Position numbers and translations under genes: made by a program
Notes under the pieces: generated by a model
The model's database searches: none
The model's input: the letters and a program-made list of their open reading frames with translations, nothing else
Told to the model about the DNA's origin: nothing
Part shown: positions 4,363 through 17,164 of the stretch, piece after piece
Position numbering within the stretch: the first letter of the stretch is position 1
Layout: each line of letters opens with the position of its first letter
NCBI GenBank assembly: GCA_009869945.1
Contig: WIXG01000290.1
Span: 1-64,000, forward strand
Source: Mesaphorura yosii
Lineage: Eukaryota; Arthropoda; Collembola; Poduromorpha; Tullbergiidae
DNA length: 64,000 bases
Reading direction: 5' to 3'

Positions 4363-6168
4363 ATGCCAAAACGGTTCCTGAATTCTATTCCTGCGCCTCG
4401 TTTGATGTGGAAGTACATGTTTATTGTGCTGGCACAATTGGTAAATGATTCACTAAGGATTAATCGGGCGCAAGCGGCTTCCGTGTATTCATAAAGATAA
4501 TAAGAAAACCATTGTTTTTGCGAATGTTTTATCCGCAGGCGGTGATCTATTTCCATAATCCGACGAGCAGTGGAGCAGTAGAATTAGAAGCACAAAGTTT
4601 TGACTCGGTCATTTGTAAGTATTGATTTTTTAATGCGATCCACCCATTCGAATTGTCGAATTTAGTCTTATGACCATGATTGATTCGTTTACAGCTTCGA
4701 CGGAATTGGTGTTCATAAATTTTTACGCCGATTGGTGCAGGTTTAGCAATATGCTGGCACCAATATTCAACGAGGCGGCTGATAAGGTCAATAGCGAATT
4801 TCCTGACAGGACGAAGGTCAGCGAAGTTTCGACGCCCAAAGCCTATCGTTAAGGCCCGATTTCGAGGTTTACGATGTTCTGTTCTTATGTTTTAGGTGAT
4901 CTTAGGACGCGTAGATTGTGACAAGCAGTGTAAGCTGCGTTTCAATTAAACTTAAGTTATTAATTCTTCATGCAGCAATCAATAAATTTTGCCATTTCTC
5001 AGCGTCCATCTCTTCGCGGTACAAAGTGTCGAAGTATCCCACCTTGAAGCTGATTCGAAATGGTATACCGGTGAAGAAGGAGTATCGAGGGGCAAGAACT
5101 TCTGATGCGTTTCTGGAGTATATCAAACAGCAACTAGCAAATCCGCTGAAGGAGTTTACAAACTTGCAGGAACTAGTTCAAATTGATGACGTAAGTAGCT
5201 TGCTTAACTTGCTTTTTTTGGAAGCTAGTTTTTGGCTTCCTGTCGTAATTAATTTTATACTACGTTTGGTCAGGGCAAGAAGCGGTGCTTTATTGGTTAC
5301 ATGATCAGCAACGCCTCAGCGAACTACGAAGTGTACAAGAAAGTAGCCGCCAATCTAAAAGACGAGTGCACATTTTACGTGGGCTTCGGGTAAGAATCGC
5401 TGCAGACTGGAGACTGCTAATTCATGGTGAGAGCAACATGAGGTAAAAATATGCTTCCTTTTTATTAGCGATACTACGAAGAATATGCACCCACCGGAGC
5501 AAGACATCGTCGCATTTCGGCCAGATCGGACTAGAACCGTAGATTCAGATGAGACATTTCAGGGCAGAATAGATAATTACGACGACCTATTCGCCTGGGT
5601 TCAAGCAAAATGTGTGCCACTAGTTCGAGAAATTACATTTGAGAACGCTGAAGAGCTCACAGAAGAAGGCCTTCCGTTTCTGATTCTTTTTCACCATCCA
5701 GATGATACGGACAGCGTGAAGAAGTTCAACAACCTCATTCAGCAGGAACTCATGCACGAAAAACGTAAGTATGATCAAGCGTAATATCAGTAAAATGTTT
5801 CTCTTGCTTGTTAACATGAATTCGTCATTTTTGTAGCAAATGTGAATTTCCTGACGGCGGACGGTCTGAAGTTTGCTCACCCGCTGCATCACCTCGGCAA
5901 GTCCTCGAGCGACTTGCCCCTCATCGCCATTGACAGTTTCAAGCACATGTACGTTTGCAATGGCGATTTCAACAAGCCCGGAGTCGTGAGGAAATTCATG
6001 GAAGACTTGCACAGCGGGAAATTGCACCGAGAGTTCCACTACGGCCCTGACCCCACAGAAAGCCAGACGGACGATGCGCCACCAATTCCGACGAGCCCTC
6101 CAGAGTCGGCGTTCAAGAACCTCGGCCCTTCCAGAAACCGATACACCTTGTTAAAAGACGAGTTATAA
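4363..6168 (+). CDS. ERP44: ERp44, thioredoxin-fold ER/Golgi quality-control protein
   Basis: ERp44 captures Ero1, unassembled immunoglobulin-type subunits and other clients through one cysteine and returns them from the Golgi to the ER. Exons join in phase: 4363-4440, 4539-4614, 4695-4816, 4896-4929, 5003-5190, 5274-5389, 5469-5764 and 5837-6168. The first exon encodes a hydrophobic signal peptide. The thioredoxin domain carries NFYADWCRFS, the CRFS motif that replaces CXXC in ERp44 and is diagnostic. Later come KYPTLKL, the strongly conserved CVPLVREITFENAEEL block and DLHSGKLHREFHYGPDP. The protein ends in KDEL, where mammalian ERp44 has RDEL. The start follows from the signal peptide and the clean gtaaat donor. 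An AATAAA lies at 6227-6232, and StnB ends 206 bp away on the other strand. Confidence 0.95.
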
Positions 6169-6281: not shown

Positions 6282-6287
6282 TTTATT
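6282..6287 (-). terminator. AATAAA polyadenylation signal of the stoned transcript
   Basis: Minus-strand AATAAA (TTTATT on the plus strand) 88 bp beyond the StnB stop. The ERp44 and stoned 3' ends therefore converge within about 60 bp of each other. Confidence 0.7.
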
Positions 6288-6374: not shown

Positions 6375-9300
6375 CTAGTCAGAGAAGTCCGAGTCGGACT
6401 CTTTCTTCTCCTCGATCTCTGTGCTGACAATATTCACTTTCTCCTTCTCCTTCTCCTTCTCCTTCTCCTTCTCGTGACTGCTCTCGACGGTGGCTGCGAG
6501 GTTGTAGGAAGCGGGGGCCACACCGGTGGTGTGTTCGACCTCTACCACGTACTCGTGTCGCGAGAGGTTGCGCACGCACTTCTCCGGGGGCTCGTCACAC
6601 ATCGGCACAGAAATAGACCGGCACACCGTGTGCGAGACCGTCGTATGTGGCATCGTAAATTCCACGTAGCAGTACTTTGTCAGGTTGTCCGGAATCTCCT
6701 CGTGTGGCTGCAGAGTGATATGGCAGAAAAACGAGTGCGTTGTGTACGCGCCTGTGGAAAACGGAAGTCGAAATTTTGTCAAAGCAATCAACGAAGGGTC
6801 TGTGTACAATATTCATGCAATGGATTTAATCGAGACCTTGTCCATCCTTCGGGAGTCTGGAAACCCGCCACACGATGGCCCTGTGTTGATGCTCATACTT
6901 TGCCTGTCCCGACGTGACCTCCATCAGACTGTTCTCCACTGCCTCAACTGCCCCCAGAAATCTCTCGATGCCCTTCACCTTGCCACTTCTAAAGTCCAAC
7001 ACAAGCACAATCCGTCAAGGGACACAAAGCTTTACCCCGAGCAAGAGTTTGTTACCGTCGATGAGCCGACTTGACTGAGCCATAGCGAAAGTGTTTCTCC
7101 ACTCTGAACATGTAAATCCAGGTTTCTGGAATGGGGATCCTGACCATGACGTCTTCGCAAGGGATTTGCCCAAGCTTCCGACTCGTGAATCCCGGCACGA
7201 GAATATCACACCGCACTTCTATACGATGGCCCGTCGTGGTGAAGACCGTCTTCACCTGCAGAGGCAGCTCCCGGTGTCTCGGCGGTCGGACCCGAAATCG
7301 CAGCAGCTCGATGTAGCACGCATCAGGCGGCTTAAACCTGCACTCAGAAATGAAGCATTGGCATCAGAGCCATTAACCTTTCCGTGCCTCTGCACGGGCT
7401 TCGGACACGTACTTGACCATTTTTGTTCTCTCGAACTCGTCCAACTGGACACAGCTCGCGAACTCCATGGCCTCGATGCGGATCCACTCCTCGGTCGCAA
7501 TCGGAATGATGTCGTGCCTCCCAACCACCTCCTTGCCCTGCCTCCGCATGTCGTTGATGCCCAGCTCGATCTCTGTGTTCCCGGACAGGAAGGAGAGGAG
7601 GAAGAGTCTGACTCGCGCGATCTGCTTCAGAACCACCCCGTAAACGTCCTGCTCCACGTAGTACTCGTCCACCACAGTGACCTGGATCTCCTCCGTCTTG
7701 TACGTGAGAGCCCGGTCCCGGTGCACAGGAAGACGAAACAGCGCCTCCTCAATACACATGCTAAACTGCTTCATCTCTTCAAAATTCTGAGTCCCGAGCT
7801 TCACGAGTTGAGAAATCTGCAACCAAATAGAAATATCTTCATTCTTCACTGTTTAATTGAGCATGAGCATTATTATTATGTTTAAGTTGCTCACCTGAGG
7901 CGCGTGCTCAATTGGAATTCCAAGCTTCTTCAAGTCGCTTCCGAATTCCTTAACGCCTTGATAGTCGCCCTGAATGGCGAATGCTGCAAATTGGCTCAGT
8001 TTTGTGGAAATTCTTTCCGCCTTGGATATTTGGCCAGGTCTTATCCCAGCCCGTTCTTTGTAGAAGATGTACTGCACCTTCGCCGTGAATATTTTCCCGT
8101 ACTGGTCAAACTGCTGAGCCGCTGTTACACAAATTGTTGCAGGAATACATATTACTGATCTAATTATGTGTGTTTGTTCTGGAAATTCGGTTCGTTACCG
8201 ATTTCGGAGACACTGTAGCACGGCTGTAATGGAATTTCCTGAATTGGGTCTTTGTCGGTTTTGTTATTGCTGATTTGGAGGATAGGAACTTCATTGTGGA
8301 AAACCAGGCGAACAAAAACCTTCTTCCAGAAACGTTGACCAGTAATTTTCTTTTTATTTGGGTGTCTCATGAACATTTCCCACGCGCAGTTTTCGCAGAC
8401 CGTGCGAGGAAAGTCTTCGAGCGGTTGTGAAGTGTCCTCCTCGAACAAGGGCGTGCCCGGAGACTCAAGCGAGTCACGCCTCTCCGCCTTGGCTGAGTCT
8501 GCGTACGGCTGCGGCGCCGCCTCGCGATCGACCCGACCAGCCGACAAAAAGGGCACGAAGGGCTGCGAATCTTCACTCAGGGCGGACGCCGTTGAAATCG
8601 CAGGACTCTTAGGCGGGGGCGCCAGAGCAGGAGCAGTCATGCCGAAGCCGCTGTCGAATTCCCCTTTCGGTCTGCAATCACAACAAGAACGTCATGACTC
8701 AATGCACTTTGACATTCATGGGCTATTTGCAGAAGGGTACCTGATGACAACGGTCATTGTTGTGTCGTCTCCCTCGCCGAAGTCATCACCCTCTCCATAT
8801 GGGTGCTTCGCAGGGGTGCTCTGGGGAACGGGAGGAGGCTCCGTGATGGCCAGGAAGCTGTCGTCGGTGTCGAACCCGAAACCTCCGCCAGATTCCCCAA
8901 ACGAGCTGCTTTCACCACCACCCCAAGCTGCAAGAATACAAGGAGTAAATTAATTTGCTCAACTCGTCATTTCGATATTCTCGATCTACCTTCGCCCTGG
9001 GTCTCTTCCACTTTTGAATCCCCAATTGTCTCAAATTGTTTGTCGAAGGAGTCAAAGGTTGAGGTGAGGAGTCGCGACTGAGCCGGCATTACGGGTTTGG
9101 ATACCGCCACGCGAGGCGGCTCCACCACAGCGGGTTCCTTGGCCACAGGTGACGGGGCAACAAAAGCTTCGCTGGCTTTTTGTGGTGGCGGCACTTGCTT
9201 GATGTCGTTGGGCACCTTTGGACTCTCGCTCACCTGCGGCGGAGGCGGGCGCACGACGGCCGGCGGCGGAGGTCGTGATGGGGTGACAGGTGGCTTCCGC

Positions 9301-10214
9301 TCCACAGGTGCGGGTGGCTTCGGTCGCTCTGGTGGACTGACAACCTCGGGTGCAGGCACCGGAGCAGGAGCGGGCACCGGCACTGGCGCAGGTTTAGGCT
9401 CCTCCGGCACAGGCTCCTTCACAACTTGCGGCTGGGTGGCCGGACGAGCCTCCGTCATGATGGGAGCCGGAGGCGGGACCGCTGGAGGTCCACTCTCCGC
9501 GACGGTTGGCGTAATGCTGGCCGAGACTTGGGTAACCTGAGGCTGCGGCGCGGGTGTTGACGTGAACGTTGTCGCAGTTTTTTGGTAGAGATCCATGATG
9601 TCAACACTAGGCTTCGTAAGTGGGGGCTCCGGCTCCGCAACAGGCACCACTTGAGGAATGCTGGTTTCTTCTTCGACAACATTGCCAGGTTTCGGGATCG
9701 GGACCTCATCATCAAATCCGCCGAGAAGGTCCGGCGTGACGGGTGAGGGGGTTCGAGGTGAAGGTGTGGGAGAAGGTGGCTGGGGAATCGGGCTCGGTTG
9801 GGACACACGAAGACGGTCCAGCAGACTGTCGGAGGTGGCGTCCAGGCTACCCGTGACCGCGTCCAGCAGATCCTTCGTGGACGAGGGCATGACAGAACCA
9901 TAACTCGGAAAAGCCTCTGCCGGAGGGAGGTTGACCGGCGGCTCTGGAGCGGGGACAGACCACATGTCAGCTGGTTGCACGAGATTGGTGTCAACGATGT
10001 CTGCAAACGGATTGCTGTACACAGGAGGAGGCTGCTGGATGACGGCGCCCATGTTCTGAGCGAGGAACGGATTCTCGGGGATGTACTGCTGTTCTGGGGC
10101 AGACGTCGCAACAAAGTCCATGAGGAAGGGGTTCGAGGCAGCAGCCTGTTCGTAAACCAGGTGCTGGGGCGGCTCCTCAGCCTCAAACAGGAACGGATTA
10201 ATTCCTTTCTGCAT
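6375..10214 (-). CDS. stnB: Stoned B / stonin, endocytic adaptor (second ORF of stoned)
   Basis: Stonins sort synaptotagmin during synaptic-vesicle endocytosis. Eight exons join in phase: 10214-8990, 8927-8741, 8671-8199, 8121-7895, 7816-7413, 7337-7056, 6988-6837 and 6751-6375, giving about 1108 residues. The N-terminal third has four NPF motifs (EH-domain ligands) within the first 75 residues and a long Pro-rich disordered region. The stonin homology domain begins around CENCAWEMFMRHPNKKK, and the mu-homology domain carries FRVRPP, GQAKYEH and AIVWRVSRLP. The tail has an alternating Lys-Glu run from a CTCCTT repeat. The start codon is 79 bp downstream of the StnA stop with no promoter-sized space, so translation probably comes from a shared dicistronic mRNA as in Drosophila. 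An AG at 10241-10242 could allow a separately spliced transcript. Confidence 0.93.
6441..6473. repeat. CTCCTT hexanucleotide repeat within the StnB coding region
   Basis: Five perfect CTCCTT units plus CTC. Read on the minus strand it encodes an alternating Lys-Glu run near the StnB C-terminus. The length is a multiple of six, so unit gain or loss keeps the frame. Confidence 0.9.
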
Positions 10215-10293
10215 CGTGAATGTAGTTTAAGAAATCAGCACTGCACAGAAACAACACGAGGGAGATTTGTCTGTGAACTTAAAATGTCAACAT
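10215..10293 (-). promoter_or_regulatory. StnA-StnB intercistronic region with a minicistron
   Basis: The 79 bases separate the StnA stop (10296-10294) from the StnB start (10214). An ATG at 10293-10291 abuts the StnA TAA directly and opens a four-codon frame closed by TAA at 10281-10279. Further downstream, a pyrimidine-rich stretch ending in AG at 10242-10241 resembles a splice acceptor. Both are possible controls on how StnB is reached: reinitiation after StnA, or alternative splicing. Confidence 0.6.
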
Positions 10294-12585
10294 TTAAGGT
10301 TTCTGCAATTCTTCTTCGAGCAGACGGATCTCGACGTTGGTTGGGCGCACAAAGTCTGCGATGGAGGTGTCGAAGGGGTCGGCAATGTCGTCACTTAAAC
10401 CGTTGAGGAGGGGGTTGATTGGGGAGAGTGGTTTCAGCGGCGTCCTGGCGTGCTCGTCCGCATGCGCTTCGTCGAGTGGGTGATTGATCTCTGCGCCGGG
10501 CCTCCTGCTCATTTTATCAAGACCTATTTTGGGAATCTGAGGGCGTGGTGGCCTCACGTCTGTCTTGGTGCTCAGAAGTTCGTTTTCTAAATCTTTAATT
10601 TCGACCTTCCCTGTAAAAATGTCCTTCACTTGCAAGTGCGAAGTGTCGAAGGGGTCTTCGAAGTCGAGGGCGCTCTTGGGCTCCGCGAGTTCCTTGCCAG
10701 TTGGGCTCTCGTACTGCACGGGGTTCAGAGGCTCCGAGCACAGCACCTCCTCGTCCACCCGGAAGAAGTCGTCGGGCTCGCTGAGAAACGGGTCTGGCAC
10801 TGAAGTGGGTGGAGCGAGTTCGCTTTCGTCGGGCTGATTCACAAGTTCACTCTCGAGTTGTCGAAGTTCCAACTTACCCGGCACGTGCACCGACGCAGAC
10901 ACGGCGGACGTGTCGAAGGGGTCGAGCTCAACTTCCGCTTGTGTTACTGGAGTCAAAGTCCTATTCTCAACCGACTCGTCAAAATGTTCGACGTCGAACG
11001 GGTGTGGCTCTGGCTCGGGGTCTTCCTCGATGTCGACTTCGCGTGGCGGTTCGTCTTTTCTCGGGTCAAAATCAAAGTCGCTGTCGACTGATAATTTCCT
11101 CCCGATTTTCTCTTCGATGAGTACGTGCGAGGGTTTGACGGGCTCGGCGGACTCGGTCTCGTTCTTCAAGAACTCTTCTTCGATCAGCTTAAGTTGGGCT
11201 GTGCAGGGCTGAGCGATCTCGAGGGTCGAGGTGTCGAAGGGATCTTCAAAGTGAGATGATGGCGGAAGTTGGGGCCGTGGAGGGCCCGCTTTCTTTTTCT
11301 CCGCTACGGCTACGGTCACTGGCACAGCCACTGGCACTTCACATTCAACCGAGTCGAGGACACTTTCTGGCGCCTGCTCAGGCTTCACGAAACTTGTATC
11401 AAAGGGGTCTTCCTCGTCAACTCGCAGCTCCTCTTTGGTTGGAGCCTCTTGGCCTTGGTGAATGGAGGCTAGCGCGAGTTCGTCAAACTCGTCAAACTCA
11501 TCGTCATTCTCCTGAGTGAGGGCGAGGGTGACCGGAGCACTGCTGCACTGTTCACTGCTCGGTAGTTCCTCGAATTCGCTCAAGAGTTCTCGTAAGTCTA
11601 CTTTTTCAGGCGACGCTTTTTCGTCGGGAATGCTCTGCTTCGTGGCTGGGGTCGGGCGCAACTCGATATCTTGGTTGTTGGGTTCCGCCTCACCTAATTC
11701 CAATTCAAAGACATCTTTCTCGGGAGCGCTCTCAGAGTTCGCCTGTGCGTTCTGTGATGTGGTGATTTGGGAACCTTCGTCAAAGGTACCGAGCAAGTTC
11801 ACATTGTACAGGGCGCGCCTCTTCGAGCGTCTGTCCACACTTGCAGCAACCACACTTTTTGGCTGCTCGACGGGAGCTGGGGAAGAGCTTGTGAGGAGGT
11901 TGACTGCAACTCCGAGGTCGACCTTTCTCTTTTCCTTCTTATGGGCCTCCTCGATCTTCTTCACCACATCTGCGACTCCCGAAGTGTCGAAGGGATCTTC
12001 CGACTCGGGCTCGTCCGGGCTCTCAGGAATGTACGCTAGTTTGATCTCACCAGAAGCGATTGCCTCGACGAAGCTGGTGTCGAAGAGTTCGTCGCCCAAT
12101 GAGATCGGAGCTTCCTCAGAGACTTCGATAGGCTGAGCAACGGCTCCGGCGTCGACTTCGTCTGCTGATGGCTTGGCCTCGTGATCGTCTTCCCTTGTCT
12201 TGTTTTCCGGGCCCGTCCACTCGTGTTGCTGCGGGTGGGCGTCGCCTGAAAAGTCGCTGGAGGGTTCTGCGTGCTCGGCGTGATGTTTCGGGGGCTCTGG
12301 CGGTGGTGGGGGCTTCTTTTGGTAGAAGCTATCTGACTTGATTCGGTCGAGGTCTCCGCTGGTTTTCTTTAAGACGTCGTCGATTCCCGCGGTGAGAAGT
12401 TTAAACCTCTGCCACTCCTCGTTGCTGGTCGAGGGGTTTCCTGAAGCGCCTTCTTCGTTCTGCTGCTGCTGGGCGGCTAACTCCTTTTCCCGTTTGTACT
12501 TGGCGAGTTGCTCTGGGTCGAATAGATCGTCTTCGGTGTGCTTCTTTCCCTTTTTCTTTTTCAGCCCCTTCTTTAGTTTGTTCAT
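10294..12585 (-). CDS. stnA: Stoned A (first ORF of stoned), DPF-repeat endocytic protein
   Basis: A single uninterrupted 763-residue frame. The basic N-terminus (NKLKKGLKKKKGKK) and the repeated DPFDTS motif identify it as StnA, which acts with StnB in synaptic-vesicle recycling; DPF motifs bind the AP-2 alpha appendage. I count six exact DPFDTS motifs and a seventh diverged copy (ELFDTS). The later copies are followed by an acidic LE.EL helix-like segment, forming a module. The protein is otherwise acidic, low-complexity and without a globular domain. A minus-strand acceptor (TTGCAG) at about 12613, just upstream of the start, indicates an intron in the 5' UTR. StnB follows after 79 bp on the same strand. 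The family is recognised from N-terminus, DPF repeats and position together. Confidence 0.9.
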   Translation of the reverse strand: MNKLKKGLKKKKGKKHTEDDLFDPEQLAKYKREKELAAQQQQNEEGASGNPSTSNEEWQRFKLLTAGIDDVLKKTSGDLDRIKSDSFYQKKPPPPPEPPKHHAEHAEPSSDFSGDAHPQQHEWTGPENKTREDDHEAKPSADEVDAGAVAQPIEVSEEAPISLGDELFDTSFVEAIASGEIKLAYIPESPDEPESEDPFDTSGVADVVKKIEEAHKKEKRKVDLGVAVNLLTSSSPAPVEQPKSVVAASVDRRSKRRALYNVNLLGTFDEGSQITTSQNAQANSESAPEKDVFELELGEAEPNNQDIELRPTPATKQSIPDEKASPEKVDLRELLSEFEELPSSEQCSSAPVTLALTQENDDEFDEFDELALASIHQGQEAPTKEELRVDEEDPFDTSFVKPEQAPESVLDSVECEVPVAVPVTVAVAEKKKAGPPRPQLPPSSHFEDPFDTSTLEIAQPCTAQLKLIEEEFLKNETESAEPVKPSHVLIEEKIGRKLSVDSDFDFDPRKDEPPREVDIEEDPEPEPHPFDVEHFDESVENRTLTPVTQAEVELDPFDTSAVSASVHVPGKLELRQLESELVNQPDESELAPPTSVPDPFLSEPDDFFRVDEEVLCSEPLNPVQYESPTGKELAEPKSALDFEDPFDTSHLQVKDIFTGKVEIKDLENELLSTKTDVRPPRPQIPKIGLDKMSRRPGAEINHPLDEAHADEHARTPLKPLSPINPLLNGLSDDIADPFDTSIADFVRPTNVEIRLLEEELQKP

Positions 12586-13365
12586 ATTCTAACCACTACC
12601 AGGGGGTGCCCTGCAACAATCACACGCTTGACCATCTCGTCAGAAACTCACCAAACCCCTGGCGGGATTGACTGACGGTGACTCAATCAATTTAAATGCC
12701 GTTATCGTCGAAGGCCTTCACGTAGCATGTATTAACAAATTGTGCTTACTTTGCCAGGGTGGAGAGTCCATTGCCAGTCGTCACTCCATGTCACACGTCA
12801 CGCCGTGTCGTCTCCAGCCTCGCTTTGAGAAAGAATCGGGACTCGATGCTGAAGCTAATTTGATGCTCGACGGTAATAAATTCCTGAGCAGTGTCTGCGA
12901 GTTAGGGCGTGTGTATGGGAAGCACCATGACGCAAGGCTGCATTCCGTGCACGGAGGTGGGAGAGAACAGAGAAAGAGTGTAGGAGAAAGGGCTGGCAAG
13001 GCCAAATCCTGCTCTACATTTCCACACCACTGCAAGCACTCAATCGATATCGAGAACTGCTGCCATTGCGCACAGGGAACTTTCCAAGAAGACGTGTTCG
13101 CACGCACGCATGGGGAATCTGCAACACAGGGCGAGACGAGAGATAGACAGCAGCACTCTGTAGACATCCGTGCAAGGGAAACGAGAAAAAAAACTGCACA
13201 AACCTTGCAAGAGGATTTAATCTTCAATCTGAATTTATTGCACTAGAAAATAGTATGTACAAGATTAATATGAACAACAATAACAAGTTATGAGCTCATT
13301 TTTAGCATCTTAGCAGTAATTAATAAAACCAGTAATTTTAATGGCGTGGGCGAGATGACGGCGGA
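12586..13365. other. Upstream region of the stoned locus and DIS3 3' region
   Basis: About 780 bp between the stoned start and the DIS3 stop, both genes on the minus strand. It should contain the stoned 5' UTR intron and promoter. A minus-strand AATAAA at 13234-13239, just past the DIS3 stop, marks the DIS3 3' end. A plus-strand frame of 192 codons (12668-13246) is open, but it resembles nothing and is probably chance. Confidence 0.5.
13234..13239 (-). terminator. AATAAA polyadenylation signal of DIS3
   Basis: TTTATT on the plus strand, about 127 bp beyond the DIS3 stop codon. Confidence 0.65.
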
Positions 13366-16300
13366 TCAAGGTTCTCTGAGTTCTGGAATGGCTGGTGTGA
13401 CCAGGCGGAAGAGGACCTTCTCCTTGTTCTCCTCCAGACTCAGCTCCACAGTTACTCGGTCTAGCGGTCGCAGAAGGACGGGCCCGAATTGAACCTGGGC
13501 CTCCTTTTCGTTGTACACGTAGCCACCGCTCTTTGGGAAGAAAATGAATCCCTCCATCGCGTACCTGGGCACAAACACCTGCAGCGCATTCCGACGGATA
13601 AACATCACAAAACCAGAATGCTCTTCTTTCCTTCCTTTCAGAAGGTTCTGCAAAGAAGTACAAAGAATTTAGATGAAGAGCGATCCTCATAAAAATTAAT
13701 GTGATCCATCTCAGTTTTTGAAACTTACGCTTTTATGTAAGTTGAAAGACGCTCTCGAGGCGTATTGTGCCATGCGATGCCGCAAGTTGTTATTCTCACA
13801 GGTGGCGTGGATCTGTTTGGAGACCAGAATCCGCGGATCAATCGGATCAAACTTCAAGGCCATCGCGAGCAGACGATGTACCATCAAATCAGCATATCTA
13901 AACAGACCATTCAAATCAGTAATTCCTTAGCTCGTAGCTTCGTAAGTGCGAATTTGCAAAGTCAGAAGGGTCGCTACCTCCTGATGGGGGATGTGAAGTG
14001 GGTGTACAAGTCCACGGCCAGGCCGAAATGTGGGTAGAGGTCTGGGGCGGTGGTGCCTGAGCAGCAATACACCGCCTGTGTCATGCAGCGTGTGGTCAGA
14101 ACGCGCAGAATGTTCTTGAATTCTTCCGGCTGGTTTTCGATGGACTCATTCAGCGCTTTGGATCCCTGGTCGACCACAACAGTGATCCCGTGTGTCTTGG
14201 CAGCAAGCAAAAGTGGTTCAAAATTGGTCGGAGGTGGAACGGGATGTCTGCGAAGTAAAGCAAATTCGCGGAATGACTGCAAAACGTGTTGCGCCACTGA
14301 GCAGTTTGCGAGCAGCATGAATTCCTCGACCATCGAGTGAGACTCCTCGCAGTCCTGGTCAGCGTCCCCCTCGGCAGACACCTCCGCGTTCGACAGCATC
14401 AGAGCCCTGTTGCCAAAAGCCAAAATGAGGTTCAGATAAGGCGTCATGAAGTTGAAGAGAATCGAGAAGTAAACTCACCCGTTGTCAAATCGGGCCTTCT
14501 TGAGCTTCTGAGCCAGGAAGCTTAACCTTTTTAATGATTCAGTGATTTCATCAGTAGAAGACGAGTTGAGGCGTGCCTGAGCTTCGGCGTAGGTGAGCGC
14601 TGCTTTGGAGTTGACAACTGCCTTGAAGAAGTTTGTCTCCAATATCTTGGCTTCGGAGGACAATTTCCAAATGACGGAGAATACAAGTTTGTCTGTGCCA
14701 GAGTGCAGTGAACACAAGTCGGAACTCAGAAGTTCTGTGAACAGAAGAGGGACACATTTTAGTAGTAAAAGTAAAAGTCGGGTTAAATTTCATGAATAGA
14801 ATACTTGGAATCATGTCCACCCGTCGATCGGCCAAGTACACCGTCGTTCCTCTTTTCGCGGCTTCCGAGTCCAGCGCAGTTTCTGGCTTCACGTAATGCG
14901 AAACATCGGCGATGTGAACCCCGACCTCGAATGTTCCGTCCTGCAACTGGATGCAGTGTAGGGCGTCGTCAATGTCCGTACAGCCTGGTGGATCCACAGA
15001 AACAACCAACTTCCCTCGAAAATCCTTCCTAACGACGTACTCCTGTTTATCGATTTCATAAGGCACGGATGGCAGGCATGACTCGACAGCCTTGGAGAAG
15101 GGCTCATGTGGAATCCCGTGCTCGTGAAGAATTGCGTCTGTCTCGGTTTCTGTTGAAACCACAAGTTTCATAAGTGAATGAGCTCGCCTGTTAAACTGGC
15201 AACGGATGGAATACTCACCAATTGTACCCACAGGGCCCAAGATTTTCCGACAATGGCCAACTGGATGGCGCGAAGTTCGAGGCCAGGAGTCAATTTCGAC
15301 TACAATCTTCTGGTTGTCAAACTTGCTCACGTTTCTGGTTTCAATTCGCACGATGGGCATCTTCTTGTTGTCCGGGATGAAAAAGTGAAAGGTTGAAGCT
15401 ACATTCTGACCCTTTCGCAAGACTCCGCAAAGAGGCGCCCACTTCCTTCTAATAATCCCAACAACCCGGACACTCTTCTGCTTCTCTGTGACCGGCTGAC
15501 TTGGTAGGGAATTGATCAGTGCCTCCTCCGTGTCCGCTGTTGGCACATTTTCCTTGTCCAATTCAATTTTTTCCACATCTTCTGGAGCGATCACCGTCTC
15601 CTTCGTGAGAGACTCATCTTCATCGTTCAGCATCACCAAACCACTTGGCGCAGACCATTCCGACTCGGGCAGTATCTCGAAAGCCACAACATCGCCTGTC
15701 ACGAGTCCAAAAACATGCTAAGTTTGATTGTCTGTCCCTTCCCAAAAACCCTTGCAAATAAACAAGACGCGATCATACCTTCACTGGCACGATTAATGTT
15801 GTGTCTTCCACGAACAAGCACTTCCGACTGATCTTGGTCTGCGTCAACCCGAATGAAGCCTTCATTAAAGTTCCTTGATCTGTACACGCCTTGAAAGTAT
15901 TTGCCACCCTTAATTCCGTTCTGCACTGTCTTCATGTCCTCATGGGCCGGATACAGGAAGTCTCCCACAGCGCCTCCTTCGTCCTCGTTCAGAGGTGTTC
16001 GGCAAATCTTTTCATCCAAGCCCTTGGACTTGGCATCTCCGATCAGCCCGGTCACGTACTCCTCGCAAGTGGCAATTGCTGTTTCCTTTCTAGCCTCCAC
16101 ATGCTTGTCGTAGACGTCTTTCTGGTCGCTTAGAATGACAACTCGGATTCCGAAGACGTTAAAGTGAGTACAGAAGTACTCAAAAGACTTAAGAAAGGCC
16201 CTTTGATTTCTGAGTCGGGGACTTTCGTCAGGATGGCGTTCCACGTAAGTGTCCTTGTGATGCTCGTTGAGGAAGTAAAAGAAGTTTCTGTTCTTTGCCG

Positions 16301-16670
16301 CCTCCCGCAACCTTCTGTACTTGGTTGGATTGATCCGCAATACCTCGTCCATCACAATTTGAAGTAAGATCACATTTGAGAGCTCTTCCAGCACGTCGGT
16401 TTGTCGTAGGACGAATAAAGCGTCGGGCAGCAAAAAGTGCTTGAAATCGAATGTGGACGACAAAATCGGAGGATCAGTCTGCAAACCCGACTTGGAAAAA
16501 GGTGAGCTGGGACAAATTTTGCAAAAACCGTAGCCACAATTGATGTCTGCACGCAGGTATTTCTCACGGGAAATCTTCAGTGGACCTCCTCTCTTATTTT
16601 GGCGATAGTAAATCGTCTCTCCGATCTGTCCAGACCCGGTGGTTGGTTCCTTCTCCAAATCAAATCCCAT
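13366..16670 (-). CDS. DIS3: DIS3/Rrp44, exosome exoribonuclease
   Basis: Catalytic 3'-5' exoribonuclease of the RNA exosome. Exons in order: 16670-15779, 15695-15219, 15149-14805, 14734-14479, 14406-13978, 13897-13729 and 13647-13366. The N-terminus has a CR3-like Cys motif (YLRADINCGYGFCKIC) and a PIN domain (LLPDALF, MDEVLR, CEEYVTGL). Two cold-shock domains follow. The RNB domain has VDPPGCTDIDDALHC, holding the magnesium-binding aspartates, GVHIADVSHYV, and THFTSPIRRYAD; a C-terminal S1 domain ends the protein. The exosome-type PIN plus CR3 and the DIS3-like RNB separate it from DIS3L2. Relative to human DIS3, the residue matching PIN Asp146 appears to be Gln (codon at 16205-16203). The start at 16670 is the first Met in frame and is less certain than the rest. 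Confidence 0.92.
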
Positions 16671-17164
16671 GTTAGCGTCAAGAAGGGAACCGCCTGATCA
16701 AAAATGCGTGGTAAAATTAGTAAAATACTATGGATGCTCCACCAGGGAAGAAACAGATAAGCTATCCTCACGTTATCGGTGTACTTACGAAGAGATCGCA
16801 GATCGACACCGTGATTCGCAGATTCAACTTGTAAATACGGCGAAATTCGAACTCGGTAAGCAGGTTCTGATTGTAATCAGTCAACACTTTGAGTACAAAA
16901 GGAAAAGAACAGAACACATGACAATCTTTAAAGATAAGTCGACGTCGAGAGCTACCGCAATAGTCAGTTTTTTCAAAGGCTGAGCAAGTGCGCGTGTTTC
17001 ATCCCGCAGCACGTGCAACGCGCTTGTCTCATTCTGACACTTGCACGGTGTTTCCAAACGAAAATTGACAAGATACGTTTCAGGAACTTTTATTTTATTT
17101 TGACAAAACCATCAGGCTGAGGTTGTTGCTGTTATCGTTGTTTTATTGTGGTCGTGCTAATGTA
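16671..17164. other. Gap upstream of DIS3
   Basis: About 490 bp between the DIS3 start and the DIABLO-like stop. It contains the DIS3 promoter or 5' UTR and the 3' UTR of the neighbouring minus-strand gene. No coding signal is seen. Confidence 0.5.

Follow-up and report, generated by a model that had tools for sequence, protein, structure and literature searches.

A putative dicistronic stoned locus, probably from outside the insects, with a first cistron nearly free of in-frame ATGs and bearing only short off-frame ORFs

The 64,000-nucleotide (nt) stretch of genomic DNA analyzed here (the window) carries on its minus strand what its architecture marks as a relative of the fly stoned locus and probably its orthologue: a StnA-like open reading frame (ORF) followed in near contact by a StnB gene. 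Two sequence signatures accompany this anatomy. The StnA ORF has all but lost its internal in-frame ATGs, and the ATGs that it retains in the other two frames open only very short ORFs. The two proteins are likely made from one dicistronic mRNA, on which StnB would be reached by a combination of leaky scanning and reinitiation. The stoned locus of Drosophila melanogaster is said to have been described by Andrews in 1996 as the source of a StnA/StnB dicistronic transcript. How ribosomes reach a second large ORF, in this case 2.3 kb downstream, is a standing question in eukaryotes. Dicistrons as such are not rare, since passages of PMC4528330 count 159 dicistronic pairs in the fly annotation. 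The novelty of the present locus probably lies in its being a non-insect member and in its off-frame signature, the dicistronic stoned of the fly being already known.

The anatomy agrees closely with a sequence-only reading of the same DNA (Table 1). That reading described StnA as a single coding exon of 763 codons with DPF repeats, which is correct to the base (12585-10294, seven DPF motifs), and StnB as about 1108 codons with NPF motifs and a stonin mu-homology domain, which the spliced model reproduces (1108 aa, 10214-6375). It further placed both on the same strand with 79 bp from StnA stop to StnB start, exactly the distance found (10293-10215), and its interpretation of the two cistrons, their order and their spacing as a shared-locus architecture (12585-10294, then 10214-6375) is supported. 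The StnA-like protein begins with a lysine-rich stretch (12 K among residues 1-35), and six of its seven DPF motifs belong to the longer motif DPFDTS. In the C-terminal portion, DPFDTS occurs at residues 448, 555, 644, and 736, each time followed by an [LI]ExE[LF] stretch, these four units having been chosen by eye, without repeat statistics. Passages of PMC3373503 describe fly StnA in similar terms, as a protein with a lysine-rich start, then a coiled coil, and with four DPF repeats at the C-terminus. A Pfam search with StnA found no family even at E 1, and in its own genome its sole match is itself at E 0.001 (four candidates scored). Neither StnA nor StnB exon 5, when queried against viral contigs, had a confirmed relative there.

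In the StnB model, eight exons form a single open frame once seven GT-AG introns, each 62-85 nt long, are removed. An alternative donor for exon 5, at 7377, was rejected with seven in-frame stops; the donor at 7412 leaves a single open frame. The C-terminal mu-homology domain is recognized by Pfam (PF00928, residues 736-1054, E 2.3e-40), and the best of 22 PDB hits are AP-2 mu chains (E 1.6e-10), no chain among the 22 bearing the stonin name. Its N-terminal region is rich in proline (104 in residues 1-500) and holds NPF motifs at residues 6, 28, 48, and 68. Close to the C-terminus, a short repeat at 6440-6485 encodes a lysine-glutamate run. As for the neighbors, DIS3 lies upstream of StnA on the same strand, and a convergent gene with a thioredoxin-like domain (5485-6168, plus strand) has its last exon ending ~200 nt from the StnB stop.

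Table 1. Coordinates of the StnA-StnB locus and its features in the window
Feature	Position	Strand	Remarks
StnA-like first cistron	10294..12585	-	single exon, 763 codons, ATG start, TAA stop
Sole internal in-frame ATG of StnA	10510..10512	-	codon 692, 72-codon tail remaining
Intercistronic gap	10215..10293	-	79 nt
Mini-ORF MLTF, 4 codons	10279..10293	-	ATG abuts StnA stop (TAAATG); end 64 nt ahead of StnB ATG
Two splice-acceptor-like AGs in gap	10241..10271	-	last bases 10271 and 10241
StnB exon 1	8990..10214	-	start codon, four NPF motifs, proline-rich region
StnB exon 2	8741..8927	-	
StnB exon 3	8199..8671	-	
StnB exon 4	7895..8121	-	
StnB exon 5	7413..7816	-	mu-homology domain starts here
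StnB exon 6	7056..7337	-	mu-homology domain
StnB exon 7	6837..6988	-	mu-homology domain
StnB exon 8	6375..6751	-	mu-homology domain end and stop codon
AATAAA, first canonical poly(A) signal past StnB stop	6282..6287	-	

That 79 nt are too few for a separate promoter was reasoned rather than read off the DNA, and the spacing taken alone may also accommodate a splice acceptor in the gap or a promoter within the StnA ORF. A promoter there, or in the gap, would make StnA and StnB two ordinary neighboring genes, the scarcity of methionine in StnA then following from an acidic, disordered composition. Against this stands the gap itself, which contains neither AATAAA nor ATTAAA. Outside the gap, AATAAA also lies ahead of StnA, at 13239, and one or other hexamer is found within StnA at 10599 and within StnB exons or introns at 8358, 7857, and 6830. 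The predicted fold of 10200-10400 lends no support to the idea that the gap holds a structured internal ribosome entry site, that region folding no better than its shuffles (z 0.46, with 142 of 200 shuffles doing at least as well); unstructured entry is still compatible with this result. At gathering scores, Rfam has no match in the window.

The two acceptor-like AGs in the gap bear on a different proposal, in which StnB has its own mRNA through alternative splicing: a donor in the 5′ UTR (12749, or a GTGAGT near 12652) would be joined to 10271 or 10241, skipping the StnA ORF, while StnA would be made from the unskipped form. Scored with general acceptor frequencies, a weak matrix, 10271 (3.9) and 10241 (3.7) fall inside the range of eight known acceptors (-1.7 to 6.2); about 0.1 sites as good as each would be expected per 79 nt, the StnA ORF holding one and StnB exon 1 none. 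A second, likewise weak, matrix built from 11 introns of the same genome raises 10271 to 10.1, higher than any of the 217 AGs in the StnA ORF and a score expected of 0.02 sites per 79 nt, whereas 10241 scores only 4.5, under all 11 trained acceptors yet inside their leave-one-out range. On the donor side, 12749 scores 6.7, equal to the best known donor, but the GTGAGT near 12652, picked by eye, is absent from the best 25 donor-like sites. Skipping the StnA ORF would, moreover, leave both its in-frame ATG loss and its short off-frame ORFs without a reason, and we regard alternative splicing as an unlikely origin of StnB.

The sequence just ahead of StnA has features of its own. From 13215 to the StnA start, an initiator-like TCA[GT]T[CT] occurs just once, at 12675 on the minus strand, 90 nt upstream of the StnA ATG. 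A candidate intron of 41 nt, placed by eye at about 12652 to 12611, lies a little ahead of the ATG and is below the shortest StnB intron (62 nt). A 17-codon upstream ORF (12635-12582, minus strand) has a start that looks strong (GAG ATG G), and its TGA stop overlaps the StnA ATG; it is relevant only if the 5′ end of the message is upstream of it and splicing does not remove this stretch. The StnA start, TAGAAT-ATGA, has an A at -3 and no G at +4, and does not plainly count as weak.

As in nematode operons, a polycistronic pre-mRNA could also be resolved into a StnB message by spliced-leader trans-splicing, for which the acceptor-like sites in the gap would be suited. Spliced leaders are on record in some crustaceans, documented for calanoid copepods in passages of PMC4664967 and listed for the amphipod Parhyale in passages of PMC5111886. 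The genome (93 Mb, 1127 contigs) was searched for two copepod leader types and for leaders in the flanks of 5S genes, and the outcome weighs against leaders of these kinds: the calanoid-type core gave eight scattered, mutually different matches versus three for its reversed control, the siphonostomatoid leader gave none at up to three mismatches, and the nine 5S loci have in common, besides the 5S gene itself, only some 30 nt next to it, five of the nine having a one-sided flank. (Five of the nine 5S rRNA matches, L025-L028 and L030, are at sequence ends, as if contigs break in 5S arrays.) Trans-splicing, too, leaves the AUG pattern of StnA unexplained, and is highly improbable.

That pattern begins in frame. 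Past its start codon StnA has a single ATG in 762 codons, compared with 53 in 2466 codons of five control coding sequences, a rate at which 16.4 would be expected (binomial P 1.1e-6; Fisher P 1.3e-5); a first cistron nearly free of in-frame AUGs is what a dicistronic stoned would be expected to have. The control pool comprises StnB, one DIS3 frame, BRO1, an M1 peptidase, and arginine kinase, all of families with a Pfam match, and the DIS3, BRO1, and M1 counts are of whole stop-to-stop frames that may include some non-coding codons. The pool omits open frames that lack a Pfam match (15702-16697, for example, with 5 M of 332) as well as the smaller exons that have one. The difference persists when StnA is set against StnB alone (Fisher P 2.4e-4). 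On the supposition of two ordinary genes, the shortage would be a matter of composition. Indeed, D, E, P, and S abound in StnA, and several open frames of at least 150 codons in the window have zero or one M, many of them probably not genes. However, the proline-rich residues 1-500 of StnB contain nine internal M and still differ from StnA (Fisher P 0.0015), so low-complexity composition is an insufficient reason for the methionine scarcity. Protein composition likewise does not account for the short off-frame ORFs, and we consider two independently transcribed genes decidedly unlikely.

The second signature is seen in the two remaining frames. StnA contains seven out-of-frame ATGs, which open ORFs of 2, 1, 6, 12, 10, 1, and 9 codons, the 12- and 10-codon ORFs being nested. 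When the sequence is shuffled synonymously, preserving both the protein and the codon counts, the longest off-frame ORF averages 85.6 codons and the sum 349, and none of 3000 shuffles is as low as the real sequence; a repeat gave none of 1000. Confining the shuffles to blocks of 100 codons and counting nested ORFs once does not change the outcome, with a longest ORF of 12 codons against a lowest shuffled value of 15, and a sum of 31 against a lowest value of 44 (n = 3000). Because the stop map of the real sequence could by itself give part of this signal, the same frames were also sampled at random positions of the real sequence, yielding P 0.0008 (maximum) and 0.00065 (sum), or ~0.003 with the nested pair taken as one. 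Among eight control frames, four of them without a Pfam match, the M1 peptidase frame comes nearest (maximum P 0.055, sum P 0.019), and the other seven have P of at least 0.1 on both measures. These off-frame tests were picked after inspection of the sequence and concern one gene. In number, the off-frame ATGs are only mildly reduced (7 vs. 11.6 in shuffles, P 0.04). Past the StnA start codon, no frame has an ATG until about nt 616 (shuffle P 0.008), but an 832-nt run, the longest without an ATG, falls short of significance (P 0.09). CTG, like ATG, falls below its dinucleotide expectation in StnA (20 vs. 30 for CTG, 9 vs. 16 for ATG). Being independent of the protein, the short off-frame ORFs point the same way as the in-frame ATG loss, and the off-frame pattern points to selection on the mRNA rather than on the protein alone.

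A scheme of leaky scanning plus reinitiation would accommodate both signatures. A single promoter upstream of 12585 would produce a single mRNA ending past 6375. Some ribosomes would initiate at the StnA AUG and make a DPF-rich protein that, by analogy with the fly, would act in endocytosis; others would bypass that AUG and continue scanning for 2.3 kb until the StnB AUG, where translation would yield a stonin that, again by fly analogy, would sort synaptotagmin and work with AP-2. Between the StnA and StnB starts these ribosomes would still meet nine AUGs, including the in-frame one, which has an A at -3, and one just past the StnA stop. At the off-frame mini-ORFs of 1-12 codons, and likewise at the four-codon ORF of the gap, they would terminate, resume scanning, and reinitiate, while a long in-frame ORF would trap them, in keeping with a loss of in-frame AUGs. 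Elements of this scheme have precedents in the fly. As summarized in passages of PMC11892635, Wall (2005) tied translation of the second cistron to the absence of in-frame AUGs from the first; the same source reports that the upstream ORFs of fly stoned and Snapin are deficient in internal AUGs, that reporters depend on leaky scanning, and that the first-cistron start context has diverged from the consensus. Passages of PMC4528330 cite Wall (2005) for a resumption of ribosomal scanning. One may then propose, tentatively and with somewhat less than even confidence, that the StnA ORF has been selected in all three frames as a corridor for ribosomes, in-frame AUGs being removed and off-frame AUGs stopped within 12 codons, in an arrangement that predates the insects. 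Such a corridor, if real, would account for in-frame AUGs mattering most in the fly.

How old the arrangement is depends on the host. StnA proteins are confined to insects according to passages of two 2012 papers (PMC3373503; PMC3393740), and passages of PMC2374702 speak of StnA and StnB for insects at large; a search of the open-licence literature found no report of stoned as dicistronic outside flies. In the genome, neither COX1 nor an 18S pattern gave a match, and an arginine kinase and chemoreceptor families served to place the host. The arginine kinase of the genome (four exon translations) was ranked against single-domain PDB chains, with 4bg4 best at 684 bits, 5zhq at 675, and the Pro c 2 chain at 660, which we take to be the shrimp, crab, and crayfish enzymes, respectively. 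Two-domain kinases lead by summed score, yet reach only about 380 bits per domain. The chain 1m15 (625), presumably horseshoe crab, outscores 6ky2 (613), presumably Daphnia, and the ranking therefore mixes rates of change with kinship and by itself places no host. The insect odorant-receptor family 7tm_6 gave no matches from 10 candidates in the genome, in a search whose controls also gave none, and the related 7tm_7 family had 61 matches at E 0.001. Taken together, the kinase and the two receptor families suggest a pancrustacean that is not a winged insect, and the host is probably a non-insect pancrustacean. The sequence-only reading had suggested that the arrangement is old in arthropods. 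That claim gains one uncertain step from a host that looks like a non-insect pancrustacean, but not from the kinase alone, which does not place the host. The locus thus suggests that one message for two proteins predates the insects. Were the host a crustacean, both StnA and the two-protein arrangement would have to be older than the insect-only statements of 2012 (passages of PMC3373503 and PMC3393740) imply. The locus would also offer a natural test, probably outside insects, and its three-frame signature is measurable in any genome.

Comparison with known systems sets the locus in context. UNC-41 of C. elegans and stonin 1/2 of mammals (passages of PMC3393740) share with it a mu-homology stonin that matches the second cistron, but UNC-41 is described there as having no StnA similarity beyond DPF motifs. 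The bicistronic leaky-scanning loci of green algae (passages of PMC11892635) resemble it in having two ORFs and a depletion of AUGs ahead of ORF 2; their genes are unrelated, however, and the algal ORF 1 start contexts are weak. The closest likeness is to stoned of Drosophila melanogaster, with which it has in common the order and near contact of the cistrons, a StnA with a lysine-rich start and DPF repeats, a first cistron with few in-frame AUGs, and a StnB whose proline-rich N-terminus holds NPF motifs and whose mu-homology domain is C-terminal. It departs from the fly locus in its apparently non-insect host, in the one internal in-frame AUG left to it, and in a start context that is not plainly weak.
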